Assembly: GCA_015709675.1 (NCBI GenBank)
Contig: CP054182.1
Span: 2,769,448 to 2,833,447, forward strand
Direction: 5' to 3'
Length of the DNA: 64,000 bases
Origin: Ignavibacteriales bacterium
GTDB lineage: Bacteria; Bacteroidota; Ignavibacteria; Ignavibacteriales; Ignavibacteriaceae
Shown here: piece after piece, positions 1 to 12,244 of the stretch
How the letters are laid out: each line of letters begins with the position of its first letter
How positions within the stretch are numbered: the first letter of the stretch is position 1
Translations under genes and position numbers: made by a program
The notes under the pieces: generated by a model
Databases searched by the model: none
What the model was told of the DNA's origin: nothing
The model's input: the letters and a program-made list of their open reading frames with translations, nothing else

Positions 1-209
1 AAGGTTATGGCCTCCTCGGTCATCGCGACGGCAAAAATTTCAGGCGGAAAATCGGTTTTTAATAAAGAAAATGCCACTTCCGCAGCCCCATGGCCATAAC
101 CGTTTGCTTTAACCACAGGAATAACTCTCGAAGGAAAACTGTGTTTCCTAATGTTGAGATAATTTTCTCTGAGATTAGAAAGGTTAATGACTGCTTTAGT
201 GGGACGCAT
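1..209 (-). CDS. alr: alanine racemase, N-terminal part (runs off left edge)
   Basis: Only the first 69 codons are in the window. The frame opens at the ATG whose complement is 207-209 and stays open to base 1. It contains the PLP-binding signature VVKANGYGHGAAEVA, with the Schiff-base lysine at residue 34, preceded by the typical AVINLSNLRENY start of the barrel domain. Alanine racemase makes D-alanine for peptidoglycan in the cytoplasm. It is divergent from nuoA across a 188-bp gap. The family is recognised with high certainty from the lysine motif; the rest of the protein cannot be judged here. Confidence 0.9.
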   Translation of the reverse strand, partial: MRPTKAVINLSNLRENYLNIRKHSFPSRVIPVVKANGYGHGAAEVAFSLLKTDFPPEIFAVAMTEEAIT

Positions 210-236: not shown

Positions 237-244
237 GAAATATA
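237..244 (-). promoter_or_regulatory. possible -10 element of alr (TATATTTC)
   Basis: Read on the minus strand, TATATTTC lies 27 bp before the alr start. It resembles the TATATTTG element seen before tRNA-Phe, lpdA and etfB in this window. No convincing -35 was identified, so this is a weak call. Confidence 0.25.
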
Positions 245-300
245 TCCGAATAATAGCAGGATTACAAAGAAAATGCCTAAGTTTTGAGGCGAATGAGTGT

Positions 301-316
301 TGGCATGAGATTTGCA
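301..316 (+). promoter_or_regulatory. sigma-54 (RpoN) type promoter of the nuo operon
   Basis: The sequence TGGCATG-AGAT-TTGCA matches the -24/-12 consensus TGGCACG-N4-TTGCW at every conserved position except one (T for C). The GG and GC pairs have the correct spacing (302-303 and 314-315). The predicted start is about 11-12 bp downstream of the GC, near base 327, giving a leader of roughly 70 nt to the nuoA ATG at 398. It lies in the alr/nuoA intergenic gap and points toward nuoA. Sigma-54 promoters need an AAA+ activator; no activator gene or clear enhancer site is visible here. Confidence 0.55.
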
Positions 317-397: not shown

Positions 398-841
398 ATG
401 ACTGAATTCGGTAAAATCCTGGCTTTCATGATTCTGGCTATAGTTTTTGTTATAGTTGGAATTTTTACAGCCTACCTCATAAGACCCCATCGCCCTACCG
501 ACGAAAAATTATTAACATACGAATGCGGAGAAAATGCTCAGGGCTCCCCCTGGGTCAGGTTTAATTTCCGTTTTTATATAGTAGCCCTGATATTCCTGAT
601 ATTTGACGTGGAAATTGTGCTGCTTGTACCATGGGTGATAATTTACCAGGAATACGGAATCATTGGATTTGTAACTGGATTTGCCTTTATTTTCCTCCTT
701 GTAGCAGGTATGGTTTATGAGTGGAGAAAGGGCGATCTGGAATGGGACCGGCCGGAAAGTGAGAAATTCATGTCAAATACGTTTAAGTTACCGCAGGTTA
801 CCCTGCCAGCCAAAAAAGTAAAAGAAGAGGTTACAAATTAA
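398..841 (+). CDS. nuoA: NADH-quinone oxidoreductase subunit A
   Basis: Small membrane subunit of complex I, 147 aa. Three transmembrane helices are visible (about residues 8-28, 58-82, 87-108). The family landmarks are YECGE at 41-45 on the first loop, [11 protein letters not shown] at 69-79 and [10 protein letters not shown] at 107-116. The C-terminal tail past residue 118 is longer than in many NuoA proteins and is polar. It is the first gene of the nuo cluster; its stop overlaps the nuoB ATG by one base (TAATG), implying translational coupling. A purine-rich GGAAAG lies just upstream as a weak ribosome binding site. Confidence 0.96.
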
Positions 842-1332
842 TGGGACTTCTCGATCAGAAATTCGAAAACGAAAATATAGTAATAACCAATCTTGAGGAT
901 CTCCTCAATTGGTCCCGCCTGTCATCACTTTGGCAGGTTGGATTTGGTCTTGCCTGCTGCGCAATCGAAATGATGGCTACTTCAGCTTCTCATTACGATT
1001 TTGACCGTTTTGGGGTAATCCCCCGCCCATCCCCCCGTCAGTCAGACATCATTATTATCTCGGGTACCGTTACCCTTAAAATGGCTACGAGAGTAAAAAG
1101 ACTGTACGAACAGATACCTGATCCAAAATATGTAATATCAATGGGAAGCTGCGCCAATTGCGGAGGACCGTATTGGGAGCACGGCTATCATGTGCTTAAA
1201 GGGGTGGACAGAATTATACCTGTTGATGTTTATGTCCCCGGATGTCCTCCAAGACCGGAAGCACTCCTGGAAGGACTTCTGAAACTTCAGGATAAAATCC
1301 GTAATGAATCTCTTGTTAGGAATGCATCATGA
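841..1332 (+). CDS. nuoB: NADH-quinone oxidoreductase subunit B (cluster N2)
   Basis: Carries the terminal [4Fe-4S] cluster N2 that hands electrons to quinone at the junction of the peripheral and membrane arms. The four ligands are present: the adjacent pair Cys39-Cys40 in [10 protein letters not shown], Cys104 in [10 protein letters not shown] and Cys135 in VPGCPPRPE. The length of 163 aa is typical. The frame overlaps nuoC by 4 bp (ATGA). All ligands are intact, so the subunit should be functional. Confidence 0.97.
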
Positions 1333-1856
1333 CGCAGGAAGAAATTAAAACTTACATCACAGAACATTATCCAGCGCTTAGCGGACTCGATTTTGATAAA
1401 TCTGCGTCAGATAAAGCTCTTGAAGTACCGGCAGATAAACTGATTGACCTTATGTCAGTTCTTTATGGTGATTCAGAGTTAAAAATGGATAATTTAATCC
1501 TCCTTTCAGCTGTTGATGATTTCAATGGTACAAAATCCACACTGGAAGACGGGAGCACGGTTATGACCGGTGGTACCCTTTCGGTGTATTATCACCTTGA
1601 ATCACTAAGTCTTCGTCATAAATTTAACGTTGTGGTTCACGTTCCCCGGGAGACTCCGGATGTCCCTTCCGTAACTTTTATCTGGCAGGGAGCAAACTTC
1701 CACGAACGCGAAGGATATGATATGATTGGGATCAATTTCACAAACCATCCAAATCTTATCCGGATTCTAATGCCTTATGACTGGGAAGCAGGATATCCGC
1801 TCAGAAAAGATTACAAAAATCCTGAATTTTATCAGGGAATGAAGGTCCCCTACTGA
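1329..1856 (+). CDS. nuoC: NADH-quinone oxidoreductase subunit C
   Basis: 175-aa peripheral-arm subunit (30 kDa family). The family signature lies near residues 131-162: [12 protein letters not shown], then [13 protein letters not shown], then PLRKDY. NuoC is separate here, not fused to NuoD as in some bacteria, which fits the one-gene-per-subunit Chlorobi/Bacteroidota pattern. It starts inside the end of nuoB and stops one base before nuoD. Confidence 0.95.
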
Positions 1857-1857
1857 T

Positions 1858-3000
1858 ATGAGTGAATTTTTAACTTTACCCCCTCAGCAAGTAAAAACTG
1901 AAGAAATGGTCCTGAATATGGGACCTCAGCATCCTTCTACGCACGGCGTTCTTCGCCTGGAAATCGTTCTTGAAGGAGAAGTAATAGTTGATGTAAAACC
2001 GCATGTTGGATATCTGCACAGATGTTTTGAAAAACACTGCGAAGCGCTTACCTATCAGCAGATTGTTCCTTACGTTGACCGGATGGATTATCTGGCCGCG
2101 ATGGGTAATGAAATGGGCTGGGCAATTGCATGTGAACGCCTCATGGGAATTGAAGTACCACAGCGCGTTGAGTATATCCGTGTCATCATGGCTGAACTGC
2201 AGAGAATTGCCTCTCACCTTGTTGCCGTCGGAACTTATGGGCTTGATATTGGAGCATTCACTCCTTTCCTCTATTGCTTTAGAGACCGCGAGAAAATATT
2301 AAATCTCTTTGAAATAACCTGCGGCGCAAGACTTCTTTATAATTATATGTGGCCGGGCGGTCTTTCACATGATATTCCCCCTGACTTTGTGAGACTGACC
2401 AAAGAGTTTCTCGAAGAATTCAAACCGACTGTAAAAGAACTGAATAATCTTCTTTCATACAATAAGATATTTATTGAAAGAACGGCAAATGTCGGAATAC
2501 TTCCGCTTGATGCTGCAATTAACTACGGCATGACTGGTCCAAATTTACGGGCTTCCGGCCTTAAATGGGATCTAAGACGAGATGACCCATATTCAGTATA
2601 TGACAAGTTCGACTTTGATATACCAGTCGGCGAGGGCTGGCATGGAACTGTCGGAGACTGTTGGGACAGATATTACGTACGTGTTCTTGAAATGGAACAG
2701 AGCATACGGATTATTGAGCAAGCCATTGATCAGATACCAGAAGGTGATGTAAGTTCTGCCATTCCGAAAAGATATAAACCCCCTGTCGGGCATATCTACG
2801 CAAGAGTGGAAAATCCCCGCGGAGAACTCGGTTATTTCATTGTGAGTAACGGCGGACAGCAGCCCGCAAGAGTAAAGGTACGGCCTCCATCTTTTATTAG
2901 TCTTGGAGTTATGGGCGAACTTTGCAAAGGCCATCTGGTCGCGGATGTTGTGGCGATTTTAGGAAGTATTGATATTGTACTCGGTGAGGTAGACAGATGA
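1858..3000 (+). CDS. nuoD: NADH-quinone oxidoreductase subunit D (49 kDa)
   Basis: 380-aa subunit that forms the quinone-binding pocket with NuoB. It opens with the family motif [12 protein letters not shown] (22-33), has GYLHR (51-55), and ends in the characteristic VLGEVDR. It is homologous to the large subunit of NiFe hydrogenases but lacks the metal-binding cysteine pairs, as expected for complex I. The stop overlaps the nuoH start by 4 bp. Confidence 0.96.
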
Positions 3001-4067
3001 TTTTCGATTCTCTTTTTGAGTTAACCAATAACCTGTTCATTTCCTTAACTGTAAATGCTGCTCTGCCTTTAGTTTTTATCATACCCTTCGCGCTTTTTGC
3101 GGTCTGGTGGGAAAGAAAAGTATCAGCCCATATGCAGGACCGCCTCGGCCCGATGCGGGTTGGTAAACATGGCTGGCTGCAAACAGTTGCTGATATTTTA
3201 AAGCTTATTCAAAAGGAAGATATTGTTCCGAAAGTAGCTGACCGGAAACTATTTAATATCGCTCCGGTACTGACCTTCATGGGAAGCTATGCAGTGTTTG
3301 CGGCAATTCCCTTTGCAGGTGCCTATATCGGTTCGGACATAGATCTCGGTCTTCTTTATATTGTGGCAGTTTCCGGGCTGGTTGTCGCAGGCATTCTTAT
3401 GGCAGGGTGGGCATCGAACAACAAGTATTCCCTTCTTGGTGCAATGCGTTCAACTGCACAGATTATCAGTTATGAAATTCCGACAGTGGTTGTTATTCTT
3501 ACAGTTGCAATCGTTGGCGGCTCGTTCAATCTGAGAGAGCTTTCTGAAACACAGACTGCTAACGCGTTTAACTGGTTTATATTCGGCGGTTCTTATCCTC
3601 TAATGACCAAAATTGCACTTATCCCGTTAATGATAATTGCCTTTGTGATTATCTATATAAGTTCCCTGGCCGAAGTAAACAGAACTCCTTTTGATATCCC
3701 AGAAGCAGAATCAGAACTCGTCGGTGGATACCACACTGAATACAGCGGTATGAAGTTTGCGATGTTCTTTCTATCTGAATACGCGAATATGTTTGCGGTA
3801 TCTGTTCTTGTTGCAAGTCTTTTCCTTGGAGGATATCATTCTCCGTTCGGATATATAGGTGACCTTGTGGGCTCTCCTCTCCTGAAGGGCATTGAACAAT
3901 TTTTCTGGTTCACGTTTAAGGGACTGCTTCTGGTTACCGTTCAAATGTGGCTCAGATGGACTCTTCCGCGTCTTAGAGTTGATCAGCTCATGGCTCTGTG
4001 CTGGAAGTATCTGATTCCCATTTCGATTCTTAATTTTGTTATAGTAGCACTTTTGATGGTCTTATGA
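2997..4067 (+). CDS. nuoH: NADH-quinone oxidoreductase subunit H
   Basis: 356-aa membrane subunit (ND1 family) next to the quinone channel. It is rich in transmembrane helices and carries the conserved cytoplasmic loops [14 protein letters not shown] (about 44-57) and [18 protein letters not shown] (about 222-239). The acidic residues of the second loop line the path linking quinone reduction to proton pumping in known structures. It overlaps nuoD and nuoI by 4 bp each. Confidence 0.96.
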
Positions 4068-4627
4068 GAGAATATTTATCAAATATTTATACAGGCCTGA
4101 TGACTGTCTTCATAGGAATGAAGATAACATTACAGCATGTATTCACAAAATCCGTAACGATACAATATCCTGATGTAAGAGTTCCCATGGTTGACAGAGT
4201 CAGAAACAGACTATATGTCAATATGGATGACTGCATTGGCTGCGATCAATGCGCACGTGCATGTCCAGTGGATTGTATCACAATTGAAACTGTAAAATCA
4301 CTTCCCGGTGAAGATCTTGGCAAGACATCAAACGGCAAGAAAAAAGCTCTTTGGGTAACCAAATTTGATATTGATATCGCAAAGTGCTGCTACTGCCAGC
4401 TTTGCGTTTTCCCCTGCCCGACCGAATGTATTTACATGACTGATACCTATGAGTTTTCAGAGTATAATCGTCAGAATCTGATCTACAACTATTCAACTCT
4501 TTCTCCTGAAGAAGCTGAACAAAAAGTGATCAACTTCCAGAAATTTGAAGAGGAAAAGAAAGCTGCAAAAGCCGCTGCGGATGCTGCCGCTGCTGCAGCA
4601 AAAGCCAAGGAAGGAGAAGCTAAATAA
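4064..4627 (+). CDS. nuoI: NADH-quinone oxidoreductase subunit I (two 4Fe-4S clusters)
   Basis: Ferredoxin-like subunit that carries clusters N6a/N6b. Two CxxCxxCxxxCP motifs are complete: Cys57/60/63/67 (CIGCDQCARACP) and Cys108/111/114/118. The protein is 187 aa; from about residue 160 it ends in a low-complexity tail of Lys, Glu and Ala that is not part of the ferredoxin fold. In a complex that may lack NuoEFG this subunit is the likely electron entry side. It sits between nuoH (4-bp overlap) and nuoJ (1-bp gap). Confidence 0.96.
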   Translation: MREYLSNIYTGLMTVFIGMKITLQHVFTKSVTIQYPDVRVPMVDRVRNRLYVNMDDCIGCDQCARACPVDCITIETVKSLPGEDLGKTSNGKKKALWVTKFDIDIAKCCYCQLCVFPCPTECIYMTDTYEFSEYNRQNLIYNYSTLSPEEAEQKVINFQKFEEEKKAAKAAADAAAAAAKAKEGEAK

Positions 4628-4628
4628 G

Positions 4629-5126
4629 ATGACCTATTATTCTCTTGTTTTCTGGCTGTTTGCCCTTATCACCGTCGGCTCTGCTTTTATTGTTGTTATG
4701 AGCAAGAATCTGATATATTCAGTTTTTGCTCTAATGCTGACTTTCTTCGGTGTCGCCGGCTTATACGTTCTTCTGAGCGCTGATTTTATCGCTATTGTTC
4801 AGTTAATTGTTTACGTTGGCGGCATTCTGATTGTACTGATTTTCGGAGTGATGCTCACGAACTCAGTTCTTACAGAAGGAATTAAAAACAGCATGACCAA
4901 TCTGCTGCTGGGTTCAATTGCGACCGGTGCACTGGCTGGTCTTCTCATTCTTCTTTTTACCGAAAGCGGTTTATATACGAATGCAGCAGTTCTGACGCCT
5001 GTTCCGTTGAAAGAAATCTCACGGCTATTTATAGTTGATTACCTGGTGCTTTTTGAACTGCTCGGTGTTCTTCTTCTTGCTGCACTTATCGGTGCTGCTT
5101 CTATCGGAAGAAAGGAGAAAATCTAA
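4629..5126 (+). CDS. nuoJ: NADH-quinone oxidoreductase subunit J
   Basis: 165-aa membrane subunit (ND6 family) with five predicted helices; the pi-bulge helix region [19 protein letters not shown] is typical. The open frame extends 28 codons upstream into nuoI, but that part is basic and unlike NuoJ. The ATG at 4629 directly follows the nuoI stop and is preceded by AAGGAGAAG (about 4609), so I use it. The stop overlaps the nuoK start by one base. Confidence 0.94.
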
Positions 5127-5437
5127 TGTCTGAAATCACCCTCAATCATTTTCTTGTTATCAGTTCGCTGTTGTTCAGTCTGGGGCTTTATGCAATGATC
5201 ACAAGAAAAAATTCAATCCTCATTCTGATGGGTGTTGAACTGATGCTTAATGCTGCAAATATTAATTTTGTGGCTTTCTCCCATTTTGGAAACTTTGGCG
5301 CATCGGGCCATCTTAACGCACTGGTTATTATAGTACTTGCCGCTGCTGAAGCAGCCGTTGCACTGGCCATTGTGCTCAATATTTACAGGAATTTTAATAC
5401 AGTAAACGCTGACGAAGCAGATAAACTAAAAGAGTAA
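5126..5437 (+). CDS. nuoK: NADH-quinone oxidoreductase subunit K
   Basis: 103-aa membrane subunit (ND4L, related to MrpC). It has three helices with the two conserved membrane glutamates, Glu38 in [11 protein letters not shown] and Glu75 in [11 protein letters not shown], which take part in proton translocation in studied complexes. It is coupled to nuoJ through a one-base overlap and separated from nuoL by 2 bp. Confidence 0.95.
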
Positions 5438-5439
5438 TT

Positions 5440-7506
5440 ATGAATTCTGAGTTTCTCTCTCTTATTGCAATAATCGCACTCTTTGCTCCGCTGGCAGGAT
5501 TTTTTACAACTCTCCTGCTTAATAAATGGACAAAGAATGCTCATTATGCGGAGATGTTCTTTATCGGATTAAATGTTATTGCCGCAGGTATCCTGCTGTT
5601 TATGACTTCCGGTGATTTACATTCACTTCATCTTATTTCGAGTTTTAACTGGATAGAGTTCCCCGGCATTACTATTGAGCTGGGATTTCAGTTTGACAGT
5701 CTCTCGGTAATCCTGCTTTTCGGCGTGGCTCTTATCAGTTTTCTGGTTCATACCTTTTCTCTCGAATACATGCACGGTGATAAAAGATACTCACGCTACT
5801 TTGCGTATCTGGGTATCTTTACCTTCTCAATGAACGGAATCGTTATTACGAATAACCTCCTTATGATGTATATCTTCTGGGAACTGGTAGGACTCTCCTC
5901 TTACCTGCTTATCGGGTTCTGGTTCGAAAAAACATCTGCTTCGGACGCGGGTAAAAAAGCGTTCATCGCGAACAGATTCGGTGATTTCGGAATGCTTGCG
6001 GGTATTCTTCTGGTATTTGTGACCTTCGGAACTTTCTCATTTGACGGCATTAAAGAAGGTCTCCTGAGCGGCGTTCTTCCATTCAACAGCGGTTTCTGGC
6101 TCACTGTTATGGGCGTTCTTCTTTTCTGCGGTGCTATCGGAAAATCGGCTCAATTTCCCCTGCATGTCTGGCTGCCAGATGCAATGGAAGGCCCGACCCC
6201 TGTAAGCGCACTGATCCATGCTGCAACAATGGTGGCAGCCGGTGTTTACATGGTCATTAAAATATACTTCCTGCTATCAGCTGATGCATTACTGGTTATT
6301 GCAGTTATCGGAGCTTTATCAGCACTGATTCCGGCTACCATTGCATTCACTCAATATGACATCAAGAAAGTACTCGCCTATTCTACACTCAGCCAGCTTG
6401 GCTTGATGGTTATGGCAATCGGACTTGGCGCCTTCGGTTTTGCATTCTTTCATCTCATGACTCATGCTTTCTTTAAGGCTGGCTTATTTCTTGCAGCAGG
6501 TTCAGTTATTTATGGTATGCACCATGAGCAGGATATAAGACACATGGGCGGACTAAGAAAGTATATGCCTAAAACATTTCTTGCATTCGCGATTTATACA
6601 TTGGCGATTTCCGGAGTTCCATTTACTTCAGGATTCCTGAGTAAAGATGCAATCCTGAATGCCACAATGATCTACGGTTCATTAACTGGAAACTGGTTTT
6701 TCGCGGTCGTTGGTTTTGGAGTTACATTCCTGACAGCCTTTTATATGTTCAGACTTCTCTTCAAAGTGTTCATCAAAGGAAATATAAGCGGTGTAGAGCA
6801 TCATATAGCTCATGGTCATAAAGTCCATGAGTCCCCAAATGTTATGGTCATCCCGCTTCTGATTCTGGCTGCACTTTCAGTATTTCCGTTTTACTCATTT
6901 AATCCTCTTTCAGGTGAAAATGGCTGGCTGATGAAGGGAATGAACTTTGCCTCCTCAGCTGTACCCGATGGATTGCGGTACTCATTCATGACTTTAGCAG
7001 GTACATCAGCTACAGGATATACAGAAGCGTATGCTGAGGCATCGCATCATTACCATTACATAGCTATGGCTCTTTCCCTGCTCTTTGCCTTTGGCGGATT
7101 TATGTTATCATACACCGTTTATTTTAAGGAAAAGATCTCAACAGACATATATAAAGAGAAGTTCCGTCCGGTTTATAACTTTCTTTACAACAAGTGGTAC
7201 TTTGATGAGCTTTATGAGGTAATAGTAGTAAAGTTTTCTATGCTCGTAAGCAGAGTTCTTTATTGGTTTGATGCAACTATCGTAGATGGTCTGGTTAATT
7301 TATCCGCATATGTAACCCGTAAAGTTTCTGACTTAGGCGGTCTGTTTGACAAATATGTTGTTGATGGTTTGGTGAATTTTACAGCAATGTTCACCGGACT
7401 TATAGGTTTATTTATGCGGAAGCTGCAGACTGGTAAAATTCAGACTTATGTGGCTTTCATTGTAGTTTCAATAGTTTTAATATTTTTCTTTTACGCAAGA
7501 CAGTAG
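5440..7506 (+). CDS. nuoL: NADH-quinone oxidoreductase subunit L
   Basis: 688-aa antiporter-like membrane subunit (ND5/MrpA type). The family core GPTPVSALIHAATMV is present near residues 250-264, with the preceding HVWLPDAMEG, and DIKKVLAYSTLSQLG near 307-321 carries the conserved helix-break lysine region. The C-terminal third contains the long amphipathic lateral helix region typical of NuoL (roughly 570-660) and a last membrane anchor. It lies between nuoK and nuoM with short gaps. Confidence 0.95.
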   Translation: MNSEFLSLIAIIALFAPLAGFFTTLLLNKWTKNAHYAEMFFIGLNVIAAGILLFMTSGDLHSLHLISSFNWIEFPGITIELGFQFDSLSVILLFGVALISFLVHTFSLEYMHGDKRYSRYFAYLGIFTFSMNGIVITNNLLMMYIFWELVGLSSYLLIGFWFEKTSASDAGKKAFIANRFGDFGMLAGILLVFVTFGTFSFDGIKEGLLSGVLPFNSGFWLTVMGVLLFCGAIGKSAQFPLHVWLPDAMEGPTPVSALIHAATMVAAGVYMVIKIYFLLSADALLVIAVIGALSALIPATIAFTQYDIKKVLAYSTLSQLGLMVMAIGLGAFGFAFFHLMTHAFFKAGLFLAAGSVIYGMHHEQDIRHMGGLRKYMPKTFLAFAIYTLAISGVPFTSGFLSKDAILNATMIYGSLTGNWFFAVVGFGVTFLTAFYMFRLLFKVFIKGNISGVEHHIAHGHKVHESPNVMVIPLLILAALSVFPFYSFNPLSGENGWLMKGMNFASSAVPDGLRYSFMTLAGTSATGYTEAYAEASHHYHYIAMALSLLFAFGGFMLSYTVYFKEKISTDIYKEKFRPVYNFLYNKWYFDELYEVIVVKFSMLVSRVLYWFDATIVDGLVNLSAYVTRKVSDLGGLFDKYVVDGLVNFTAMFTGLIGLFMRKLQTGKIQTYVAFIVVSIVLIFFFYARQ

Positions 7507-7522
7507 ATAATCGGAATAAATT

Positions 7523-9127
7523 ATGTCAAGTTTCCCTATGCTAACACTTTTGACGTTTTTACCCATCATCGGTATGGTCATCATAATGATGTTACCGAAA
7601 GAAAAACGTACGCTCATAAAAATCACCACACTGGTAGCAACCGGACTTCAGGTTGTTCTTGCCGGTGTTATGTGGGCCGGATTTAATTATACACAGGCAG
7701 GAATCAATAACCCCGCTACCTTTCAATTCGTAGAAAGAGTTCCGTGGATTACCTTTGATTCAGGTTCCTGGCTTGGAATGATTAAGATTGATTATTTCCT
7801 TGGCGTTGACGGACTTTCAGCTCCCATGGTGCTTTTGACCGCGCTGATCTCTTTCATTGCGGCAATTTCATCCTGGAATATTGATAAGTCAGTAAAAGGA
7901 TACTTTGCCCTCTTCCTGCTGCTTGACACAGGTATGATGGGAACTTTCCTTGCACTGGATTTCTTCCTATTCTACGTTTTCTGGGAAATCATGCTTCTTC
8001 CGATGTATTTCCTGATTGGTATCTGGGGTGGTCCTAGAAAGGAATACGCAGCAATCAAGTTCTTTATATACACACTCTTCGGAAGCGTATTTATCCTTCT
8101 TGTTATGATCGGTTTGTATCTTTCAGTAAATGAAGTTACCGGTGAAGGAGCATCATTCCATACCTTCAACATACTTTCAATGATGGATCCGAAAAACTAT
8201 ACTCAGGATGGTATTCTCTCTCCGTTTAATCCGGCAAACCTGAGATTTATAGCGTTCATCGGATTGTTTGTGGGTTTTGCAATAAAAATACCGATGTTCC
8301 CTTTCCATACATGGCTGCCCGATGCACACGTTGAAGCTCCGACTCCAATAAGCGTTATACTTGCAGGCGTACTTTTGAAGCTCGGCGCTTACGGTATTAT
8401 CCGGTTCAATTATTCCATCTTCCCGGAAATCACCCGTGACTTAGTCTGGTGGATAGCACTTTTCGGAATGATTAATATTATCTATGGTGCTTTCTGTGCA
8501 ATGGCTCAGAAAGATTTCAAGAAACTGATTGCGTATTCTTCTGTATCTCACATGGGATATGTACTGCTTGGTATGGCCGCCCTCAATGAAGTAGGATTAG
8601 GCGGTGCGGTTCTGCAAATGTTCAATCATGGTACCATAACAGCTATGCTCTTCCTTCTGGTGGGCGTGATTTATGACAGAACTCATACACGCGGTCTTAA
8701 TGATTTTGGCGGGCTTGCAGTTAATCTTCCGGTTTATACAGGATTTGCAACTGTTGCATTTTTTGCTGCAATCGGACTTCCCGGACTGAGCGGTTTTATA
8801 TCTGAAAGCTTTGTTTTCCTCGGAGCATTTAAGGTTGAATCAATCCGACTTCTGACCATCATCTCTGCTGCTGGTATTATCCTGGGTGCAGGCTATATGC
8901 TCTGGACTATGCAGCGTGTATATCTCGGTAATCTGAATCAAAAGTGGGCTGATCTGAAGGATCTGGATTTCAGAGAATATACAATGCTTGTTCCTCTTGC
9001 AGTGATCGTTCTGATTCTCGGTATCTTCCCTTCAATTATGCTTGATCTGATGAATACTTCAATCAACGAACTGGTGAATCAGGTTAGTAAAACGGATTTT
9101 CAATCCTTTATGTCAGGAATGAAATAA
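7523..9127 (+). CDS. nuoM: NADH-quinone oxidoreductase subunit M
   Basis: 534-aa antiporter-like proton-pumping subunit (ND4 type). Landmarks are FPFHTWLPDAHVEAPTP followed by ISVILAGVLLKLGAYG near 267-292, and KKLIAYSSVSHMGYVLLG near 331-348. The length is typical. It starts 16 bp after nuoL and its stop directly abuts the nuoN ATG. Confidence 0.95.
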   Translation: MSSFPMLTLLTFLPIIGMVIIMMLPKEKRTLIKITTLVATGLQVVLAGVMWAGFNYTQAGINNPATFQFVERVPWITFDSGSWLGMIKIDYFLGVDGLSAPMVLLTALISFIAAISSWNIDKSVKGYFALFLLLDTGMMGTFLALDFFLFYVFWEIMLLPMYFLIGIWGGPRKEYAAIKFFIYTLFGSVFILLVMIGLYLSVNEVTGEGASFHTFNILSMMDPKNYTQDGILSPFNPANLRFIAFIGLFVGFAIKIPMFPFHTWLPDAHVEAPTPISVILAGVLLKLGAYGIIRFNYSIFPEITRDLVWWIALFGMINIIYGAFCAMAQKDFKKLIAYSSVSHMGYVLLGMAALNEVGLGGAVLQMFNHGTITAMLFLLVGVIYDRTHTRGLNDFGGLAVNLPVYTGFATVAFFAAIGLPGLSGFISESFVFLGAFKVESIRLLTIISAAGIILGAGYMLWTMQRVYLGNLNQKWADLKDLDFREYTMLVPLAVIVLILGIFPSIMLDLMNTSINELVNQVSKTDFQSFMSGMK

Positions 9128-10630
9128 ATGGAACTTTCTCAGAACCTACATGATCTGCTGAGTTTGCGGGCAGAACTGGTACTGACAGGAGTCATACTGC
9201 TTCTGCTGACGATTGAACTCTTCAGTAAAGGAAATAAAATACTTCTAAGAGCTGTTTCCTTAACCGGAATTGGTCTTGTACTTATTATTCTCTTTGGAGA
9301 CAGTAATACCAGTATGAAACTTTTCACCGGTTCAAACGGTGTTCCCCTCATGAGTATTGATCCTCTGGGAACCTTCGTTAAAATAATAGCATCAATTTCT
9401 GCTTTATTCACTGTCCTTTTTATGGGCATTAACCGTGAAGATGCAACTATGGAAAAGCGGGAGGGTGAATTTGTTGTTCTTCTGCTATGCACAGTACTTG
9501 GAGTTTTTTTCCTGTCATCATCTTATGACCTGATTCTTTTGTATGCCGGCTTTGAATTGCTCTCCATTTCATCTTACGCTTTGTCGGGATATTACAAACG
9601 CTCGTTACAAAGCAGCGAAGCATCGTTAAAATATCTTGTTTACGGAGCGGCATCTTCTGCAATAATGATATATGGTATATCCATTCTATACGGTTTAACC
9701 GGAACTACCAATATCTTCATCATTCAGGCGATTTTGGGATCCGGCGCAGTAAGCGGTGCCCTACTGCTGATGTCGGTCGTATTTATCCTTGCTGGTGTTG
9801 CATTCAAAATCTCCGCATTCCCGTTCCACTTCTGGACTCCGGATGTTTACGAAGGAGCCCCGACTCACTTTACAGCGTATCTTTCGGTCGCCAGTAAAAT
9901 AGGCGGATTTATTCTGCTTCTCCGTCTCATTCTGGACCTTTTCTTCAGAAAAGGATTTAATTCTGATGTATTACAGCCAATAAGCAGTCTGCCCTGGAAC
10001 GATATTCTTATTTTCATAAGTATCGGTTCAATGACTATCGGAAATTTGATTGCGCTTTGGCAAAGGAATGTTAAACGACTCCTGGCCTATTCCAGTATTG
10101 CACATGCCGGTTATCTTCTGGCGGGAATAGCTGCCCTGAACTCAGCAGGCATGGTGGCAGTGCTGGTTTACTTTGCGTTCTATCTTCTGATGAACTTAGG
10201 TGCATTCCTCGTTGTCATTCTCATTAAAAATGAAATTAACAGTGAAATGCTCGAAGATTATAACGGAATCGGCTCTAAACTGCCGCTTTATGCCATAACG
10301 CTAAGCATTTTTCTGATATCACTGACCGGACTACCCCCGACAGCCGGGTTTATCGGAAAATTCTATATTCTGATGGCCCTAATAAACGCAGATCAGGTTC
10401 TGCTTGCGTTTTTCCTGTTTCTGAACAGCGTTATCTCACTTTATTACTATGTAAGAGTGATGAAACACCTCTTTATTTCCAAACCAGAAAAGGAGCAGGG
10501 TCCGGTAACTCAGAATGTGTATGGCGGGGTTTTAACTCTGGTTCTGGCAGTACCGACCATAATTTTCGGAATTTTCTTTACTCCGATTATTAAATTTGCT
10601 GAAGCAGCCCTGAAGTTTTATCTGCCATAA
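9128..10630 (+). CDS. nuoN: NADH-quinone oxidoreductase subunit N
   Basis: 500-aa antiporter-like subunit (ND2 type). It has the motif FPFHFWTPDVYEGAPTH and YLSVASKIG near 235-260, then VKRLLAYSSIAHAGYLLAG near 316-334. It is the last gene of the cluster and is followed after 22 bp by a clear intrinsic terminator. No nuoE, nuoF or nuoG gene is found anywhere in the window. Confidence 0.95.
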   Translation: MELSQNLHDLLSLRAELVLTGVILLLLTIELFSKGNKILLRAVSLTGIGLVLIILFGDSNTSMKLFTGSNGVPLMSIDPLGTFVKIIASISALFTVLFMGINREDATMEKREGEFVVLLLCTVLGVFFLSSSYDLILLYAGFELLSISSYALSGYYKRSLQSSEASLKYLVYGAASSAIMIYGISILYGLTGTTNIFIIQAILGSGAVSGALLLMSVVFILAGVAFKISAFPFHFWTPDVYEGAPTHFTAYLSVASKIGGFILLLRLILDLFFRKGFNSDVLQPISSLPWNDILIFISIGSMTIGNLIALWQRNVKRLLAYSSIAHAGYLLAGIAALNSAGMVAVLVYFAFYLLMNLGAFLVVILIKNEINSEMLEDYNGIGSKLPLYAITLSIFLISLTGLPPTAGFIGKFYILMALINADQVLLAFFLFLNSVISLYYYVRVMKHLFISKPEKEQGPVTQNVYGGVLTLVLAVPTIIFGIFFTPIIKFAEAALKFYLP

Positions 10631-11533: not shown

Positions 11534-12244
11534 GTGAAGCGGCGCAGTTTCATCTCAGCATTTTCTCTTTTCGGGGCAGGAATGACCCTCGGAATGAACA
11601 ATTTAGGTATATTTTCTAATAGTAAAGGAAGGACATCTTTAATGGCTAATTACGAATTACCGGCACTCCCCTATGCTCATGACGCATTGGAGCCGTTTAT
11701 CGACAAAATGACGATGGAAATTCATCATGGCAAGCATCATAATGCTTATGTGACCAATTTGAATAATGCTCTTGCAGGCAATGAACTTCTCGGTTCATCA
11801 CTCGAACAATTGATGGCAGGTATCTCAAAATTATCACCCGCTGTCAGAAACAATGGCGGAGGTCATTACAATCACTCACTTTTCTGGAAAGTTATGAAGC
11901 CAGGAGGTTCAGCGCCGGAAGGAAAACTTCTTGACGCAATTAATTCTGCATTCACCTCTGTTGACGAGTTTAAAAAACTCTTTGCTAATGCAGCAATGAC
12001 AAGATTTGGTTCCGGCTGGGCATGGCTTTCAGTAGCAGATGGAAAACTGGTTATCTCTAGCACACCAAACCAGGATAACCCGCTGATGGATGTTGCTGAG
12101 GTTAAAGGCACTCCAATCTTAGGACTGGACGTTTGGGAGCATGCTTATTATCTGAAATATCAGAATAAGAGAAACGAGTACATTGAAAACTGGTGGAATG
12201 TTGTAAACTGGGGTGAAGTAGCGGCCCGTTTCGCAAAATCTTAA
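11534..12244 (+). CDS. sodA: superoxide dismutase (Fe/Mn family) with Tat-like leader
   Basis: 236 aa from a GTG two bases after the erpA-like stop. Metal ligands are His64, His114, Asp199 and His203 (motifs [24 protein letters not shown]). The GGGH region before His114 together with Gln180 in TPNQDN is the arrangement usual for Mn-type enzymes, so manganese or cambialistic use is likely. Residues 1-30 form a twin-arginine-like leader ([15 protein letters not shown]) suggesting export. A second start is credible: ATG 11642 (Met37) is preceded at 8 bp by AAGGAAGGA and begins at the usual N-terminus of the mature enzyme. Both an exported and a cytoplasmic form are therefore possible. Confidence 0.92.
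11625..11633 (+). promoter_or_regulatory. internal Shine-Dalgarno for a second SOD start at 11642
   Basis: AAGGAAGGA lies 8 bp before an in-frame ATG (Met37 of the long form), exactly where the conserved catalytic domain begins. It is stronger than anything before the GTG at 11534, and could drive synthesis of a leaderless enzyme. Confidence 0.5.

Follow-up and report, generated by a model that had tools for sequence, protein, structure and literature searches.

The operon for an 11-subunit form of complex I in a genome of the Ignavibacteriaceae is probably transcribed from an enhancer-dependent sigma-54 promoter at positions 301-316 of the window, the stretch of 64,000 nucleotides analysed here, with an activator proposed to act by DNA looping and to induce the operon together with those for a 2-oxoacid:ferredoxin oxidoreductase (kor) and a cbb3 oxidase (cco). 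Sigma-54 is generally associated with nitrogen, with flagella and with the cell surface. The promoter is of the ordinary sigma-54 type; complex I as its target is unusual. Part of respiration looks less like a constant housekeeping function than like a module called up on demand, because the same kind of switch lies before complex I, before the enzyme that probably feeds it electrons and before the enzyme that consumes oxygen. The features of the window are collected in Table 1.

Table 1. Features at the start of the window, in window positions
Feature	Position	Strand	Remarks
alr (alanine racemase), 5' part	1-209	-	divergent; continues beyond the window; translation MRPTKAVINLSNLRENYLNIRKHS...; named by sequence resemblance
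Candidate enhancer 1	145-160	none	TTCCTAATGTTGAGAT, inside alr codons; 7.6 bits, kor-trained matrix of other genera
Candidate enhancer 2	165-180	none	TTCTCTGAGATTAGAA, 20 bp after enhancer 1; 7.2 bits
alr promoter, probable sigma-A-type	237-268	-	TTTG (268-265), 20 nt, TATATTTC (244-237); read by eye; conserved in G001
Sigma-54 promoter (predicted)	301-316	+	TGGCATGAGATTTGCA; -24 box TGGCA, -12 box TTGCA
nuo operon transcription start (predicted)	327	+	12 bases past the -12 C
nuoA	398-841	+	ATG at 398
nuoB	841-1332	+	
nuoC	1329-1856	+	
nuoD	1858-3000	+	
nuoH	2997-4067	+	
nuoI	4064-4627	+	two 4Fe-4S motifs
nuoJ	4545-5126	+	ORF as listed, true start further in; named by order and sequence
nuoK	5126-5437	+	named by order and sequence
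nuoL	5440-7506	+	
nuoM	7523-9127	+	
nuoN	9128-10630	+	last gene of the 11-gene operon

A first-pass annotation had proposed a -24/-12 promoter with every conserved position and exact spacing, close before nuoA and in the right direction, and inspection of the sequence bears this out. The GG at -25/-24 (302-303) and the GC at -13/-12 (314-315) of TGGCATGAGATTTGCA stand at the consensus spacing that marks a sigma-54 promoter, and the element ends 81 bp upstream of the nuoA start codon in the correct orientation. It is the sole exact match to TGGCA-N6-TTGCW in the window; with one mismatch allowed, 14 matches are found against 9.3 expected, which is background. Genome-wide there are 33 exact matches, the majority of them intragenic, and a claim of enrichment (33 against 9 for the reversed pattern) was dropped because the control pattern carries a CpG and is unfair. 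At the genome-wide rate, the probability of a correctly oriented exact match in the alr-nuoA intergenic region is ~7e-4, and ~1.3 such matches would be expected by chance ahead of 2000 promoters, so that the presence of TGGCATGAGATTTGCA, taken alone, is only suggestive; its significance comes from its conservation and its pairing with an enhancer. In the sister species of the window's genus (G001) the site is unchanged, and the 19 bp spanning it are the longest identical run from alr to nuoA. As sole proof of a promoter this run was rejected as too weak (P ~0.36), because the region is 74% identical overall between this genome (G000) and G001. A search for inverted repeats near the promoter turned up only distant, chance-like pairs.

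The nuoA upstream regions were compared within the window's family, Ignavibacteriaceae (f1), and with other families of the Ignavibacteriales (f2, Melioribacteraceae-type, and f3), using two overlapping sets of 49 relatives and 61 named records. In part of the Ignavibacteriaceae the coding strand carries a TGGYA-N6-TTG element 97-142 bp ahead of nuoA; no f2 or f3 genome of the 49-relative set has it, and on the opposite strand it was found in 2 of 49 and 0 of 61 cases. With a sigma-54 matrix trained on korD sites, the window's genus left out, 14 of 28 Ignavibacteriaceae genomes have a nuoA site at the expected position (8.7-20.9 bits), and the maximum is 5.5 bits before nuoA in f2 and f3 and 5.9 bits before the second nuoA described below. 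Five of these 14 sites are of TGGTA type, four of which were not counted, and a clear TGGCA-type site precedes nuoA in only about one third of the family genomes. The TGGTATAAT-like elements before nuoA in G007, G012, G027, G032 and L160 were not counted as sigma-54 sites because they resemble extended -10 promoters and lack the enhancer. Look-alikes of this TGGTATAAT type, near the position of the relatives' sigma-54 site and with the palindrome absent, were noted at L054, L066, L072, L081 and L160; possibly the type of promoter has changed there while its position has not.

Where a sigma-54 site is present before nuoA, a TTGACA promoter tends to be lost (Fisher P 0.003 for all sites, 0.03 without the rejected ones), an association that is suggestive only of replacement of the one by the other. 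It is quite possible, though on balance doubtful, that the sigma-54 site is real but additional or conditional, basal nuo transcription coming from a sigma-A-type promoter: a basal supply of complex I is often required, and 4 of 10 relatives with a TGGCA-type site or enhancer retain a TTGACA promoter closer to nuoA. In the window's genus, however, TTGACT at 364-369 is the one stretch that resembles TTGAC; it lacks a good partner element and G001 does not conserve it, and a consensus scan found promoter-like sites at background level.

Besides its conservation, the sigma-54 promoter is supported by its partnership with a second element. Separate motif searches in the 160 bases upstream of the kor and the nuo sites returned the same palindrome, TTCTCA-N4-TGAGAA, with log-likelihoods of 209 against ~61 in shuffles and 96 against ~50, respectively. 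An enhancer matrix derived from kor of other genera alone was next applied to unused nuoA regions. The palindrome was present in 7 of the 8 held-out genomes with a promoter site (13.1-16.4 bits, 74-110 nt upstream) and in 0 of the 33 regions without one (maximum 8.4 bits), an association with a Fisher P of 4e-7 that is to be read in the knowledge that motif trainings and thresholds were picked in the course of the same analysis. The nuo enhancer of G004 scores 16.1 bits at -108. Over 14 genomes the total count of TTCTYA-N4-TRAGAA is not enriched, and many of its matches accompany a sigma-54 site before electron-transfer genes. To our knowledge the palindrome is not recognised as the site of any named activator.

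In relatives, TGGCATATNNNTTGWW-type sites are often found directly ahead of genes, among them fliL, a second flagellar gene, dnaK and, in repeated cases, korD (names by resemblance), the first gene of the 2-oxoacid:ferredoxin oxidoreductase operon (delta, alpha, beta and gamma subunits), for which NCBIfam points to 2-oxoglutarate and VorB groups without settling the substrate between them. A sigma-54 site stands upstream of kor in 28 of 29 Ignavibacteriaceae genomes and, at the matching position, in 0 of 21 f2 and f3 genomes. The kor palindrome of this genome is weak (9.7 bits). Before the ccoI-ccoNO operon the palindrome scores 18.3 bits in both species of the window's genus and the sigma-54 site 18.5 bits, and this site, TGGCATATTTATTGCA, is identical in the two species despite different flanks. 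Promoter and palindrome also occur together before a small cytochrome c with multihaem proteins (G022, G028), pyruvate:ferredoxin oxidoreductase (G023, G029), etfB (G014), acyl-CoA dehydrogenase (G026) and cco (G016), all named by resemblance and several of them single-genome cases that score near threshold. The combination precedes several operons (kor, nuo and cco), held-out genomes included, as is characteristic of a regulon.

Several further loci were noted. The last gene of the kor operon (L266:5522-8500; G000:C1 ~3.5915-3.5945 Mb, minus strand) encodes a 93-aa cysteine-containing protein with no NCBIfam match, and a 92-aa homologue in G018 (L229) has its own sigma-54-type site 38 bp upstream. 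A strong palindrome, TTCTTATTACTGAGAA in this genome (L381) and TTCTTAATACTGAGAA in G001 (L367), is found with a CGGCA-N6-TTGTG element ~380 bp before a predicted permease gene in both species. At L026:1413-1516 (G000:C1 ~3.3207 Mb) a palindrome of 14.4 bits and a sigma-54 site of 14.2 bits are directed into the 3' end of a gene that runs the opposite way, and no ORF follows them; the pair may be a chance occurrence or the promoter of a small or antisense RNA.

Within the window the candidate enhancers are a weak tandem pair inside the divergent alr gene. The 64 kb contain no other pair above 7 bits whose members lie within 35 bp of each other; single such scores are common. Between this genome and G001, 2 of 22 alr codons differ over codons 0-21, both synonymously, and 79 of 98 over codons 22-119, so that codon conservation over the palindrome pair has a P of 4e-10. 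The conserved stretch stops beside the first palindrome, at its left edge, and the one base that differs within 145-180 is a spacer base of the second palindrome. These observations favour an enhancer inside alr without proving it; needs of alr itself, for example in translation, could also keep its start conserved. It is accordingly conceivable, if rather unlikely, that the promoter drives nuo through an activator differing from that of kor and cco, with 145-180 being no enhancer and its conservation explained by the needs of alr. The low scores of the window palindromes beside the one before cco in the same genome speak for this, but the kor palindrome here is likewise weak, the nuo enhancer is strong in eight other genomes and in G004, and both the uniqueness of the pair in the window and the abrupt end of alr conservation at its edge argue for an enhancer.

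That TGGCATGAGATTTGCA is a chance match, with no promoter in this genome, might be read from the expected number of such matches before 2000 promoters and from the intragenic position of most of them, yet it is very improbable in view of a site conserved in the sister species, placed identically and on one strand only in relatives, and paired with an enhancer in held-out genomes. Least credible of all is that the nuoA-upstream elements are extended -10 promoters (TGnTATAAT): five relatives do have TGGTATAAT/TGGTATAAA-like elements where the palindrome is absent, but TGGCATGAGATTTGCA is not an element of this kind and the TGGCA class accompanies the palindrome.

The operon served by the proposed sigma-54 promoter has the order nuoA-B-C-D-H-I-J-K-L-M-N, and nuoE, nuoF and nuoG were not found within 398-10630. 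Because these three genes are missing from the operon, it encodes the 11-subunit form of complex I and not the housekeeping 14-subunit NADH complex I. The earlier proposal that RpoN controls housekeeping complex I is thus retained for the control, in that a sigma-54 promoter, which would need an AAA+ activator, precedes nuo, and abandoned for the kind of complex. A second set lies elsewhere in the genome: nuoABCDEF is found near 3.128 Mb, and at 3.559-3.561 Mb nuoH accompanies a nuoG-like gene that scores below the NuoG cut-off. A sigma-54 site ahead of this second, NADH-type nuoA was found in 0 of the 20 relatives tested, nearly all of which show a conserved TTGACA-type promoter (TTTAAATTGACAATC ... 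GGATAATTTTG-like), and the NADH-type complex I would be expressed separately, behind a sigma-A-type promoter in relatives. Ferredoxin is the likely electron donor of the 11-subunit complex, because the NADH module is missing and the promoter type is common with kor. Nothing indicates a link to nitrogen, once suggested as a signal; the partner genes suggest ferredoxin and electron-transfer metabolism, and the inducing signal is probably redox, oxygen or substrate state.

Two neighbouring proteins deserve mention in their own right. Shortly after the nuo operon (window 11534-12244) lies a gene for a superoxide dismutase-like protein with an export-type N-terminus. At L100:15882-17279 a Beta-CASP protein adjoining the second nuo cluster of a bacterium has strong matches to the archaeal aCPSF1 and the Cas14 models, both below cut-off.

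The machinery on which the first-pass annotation made its promoter depend, rpoN and AAA+ activators, is present. The genome (4.21 Mb, one contig) has a single rpoN, whose 483-aa product has a DNA-binding domain and the RpoN box ARRTIAKYR, and it encodes 13 strong PF00158 activators with GAFTGA or near-variant loops. One candidate activator for the palindrome is an NtrX-like orphan regulator (L102), with an NtrX match of 431.6 bits, under the 600-bit NtrX cut-off; NtrYX regulates respiratory genes in other bacteria. Another candidate system is a kinase-regulator pair (L109) preceded by a weak sigma-54 site and palindrome, in which a CIVCH motif is present in the kinase, together with a sub-threshold match to the chemoreceptor sensor domain Mcp40H-20, a c-haem sensor in Geobacter. 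At L384:1-5577 (G000:C1 ~1.8935-1.8991 Mb) a CIVCH sensor kinase and its NtrC-type partner regulator adjoin genes resembling an NrfD-type membrane subunit and a 4Fe-4S subunit, and are a possible redox input of the regulon.

In the mechanism that we propose, RpoN-RNA polymerase would sit closed on the promoter at 301-316, and an AAA+ activator would be bound at palindromic enhancers, here the weaker tandem pair at 145-180 in the start of alr. Once switched on, the activator would contact the polymerase by looping, and the promoter would open, with nuo transcription starting near 327. Because the same promoter-plus-enhancer module stands before all three operons in this genome, nuo, korDABC and the cbb3 oxidase operon would form a respiratory module that leads from ferredoxin to oxygen and is induced as a unit, the NADH-type complex I being expressed apart from it. 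The sequences themselves show the sites, how these are conserved and occur together, and which genes the operons contain; binding by RpoN, an activator common to the three operons, ferredoxin as donor and the signal are inferred from them. We lean, with modest confidence, towards the broader view that one AAA+ activator reading TTCTCA-N4-TGAGAA runs a dedicated sigma-54 respiratory regulon in the Ignavibacteriaceae, which would comprise the 2-oxoacid (in some species pyruvate):ferredoxin oxidoreductase, the 11-subunit ferredoxin-type complex I, cbb3 oxidase and c-type cytochromes, separate from the NADH branch and with a haem-binding sensor kinase or the NtrX-like protein as input. If this is true, a large group whose members are mostly uncultured has some of its core energy conservation under sigma-54, two versions of complex I in one cell answer to different sigma factors, and gene regulation, as a line of reasoning separate from biochemistry, links the working of the 11-subunit complex to enzymes that produce ferredoxin. 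With the palindrome and the promoter matrix, the regulon can be tested directly in cultured relatives.

Complex I as an RpoN target is not mentioned in the available portions of studies of Geobacter, Desulfovibrio, Clostridiales and Flavobacterium, nor in those of a 2025 survey of many phyla (PMC12316311), and no report of sigma-54 control in Ignavibacteria was found in the open literature; an earlier report elsewhere is possible, because the search covered open papers only. The likeness to classical sigma-54 promoters with enhancer-binding proteins of the NtrC, NifA and PspF type lies in the -24/-12 boxes, the fixed spacing, the remote palindromic enhancer, and the RpoN and GAFTGA-type AAA+ activators of this genome; the difference is that the targets here combine a complex I operon with a ferredoxin-dependent oxidoreductase and a cbb3 oxidase. 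NtrYX two-component systems resemble the present case in the orphan NtrX-like activator among the candidates, but that candidate scores below the NtrX cut-off and its link to the enhancer is only putative. For Xylella fastidiosa a computed RpoN site, GGGCACCATATTTGCT, has been placed 65 bp before nuoA with a low score of 9.14 (PMC3224663); there the operon is a full nuoA-N, however, and the accessible text of that study gives neither enhancer nor conservation. The sigma-54 regulon of Flavobacterium psychrophilum, a member of the same superphylum, shares dnaK as a target, a dnaK site being found here in the relative G005, but it consists of chaperones, proteases and gliding motility, and the available text does not mention complex I (PMC9723704). 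In Geobacter sulfurreducens the RpoN regulon likewise includes central energy genes (fumarase, acetyl-CoA transferase, formate dehydrogenase and cytochromes), although nuo or NADH dehydrogenase is not mentioned in the portion of the report at hand (PMC2725144). The closest parallels to the enzyme, judging by the available parts of both sources, are the 11-subunit complexes of Desulfitobacterium hafniense, for which ferredoxin has been proposed as donor (PMC11238625), and of Melioribacter roseus (ndhABCDHIJKLMN; PMC3534657), which have the same gene set and lack the NADH module. Part of the Ignavibacteriaceae, unlike the Melioribacteraceae-type genomes tested here, have the sigma-54 site before nuoA.
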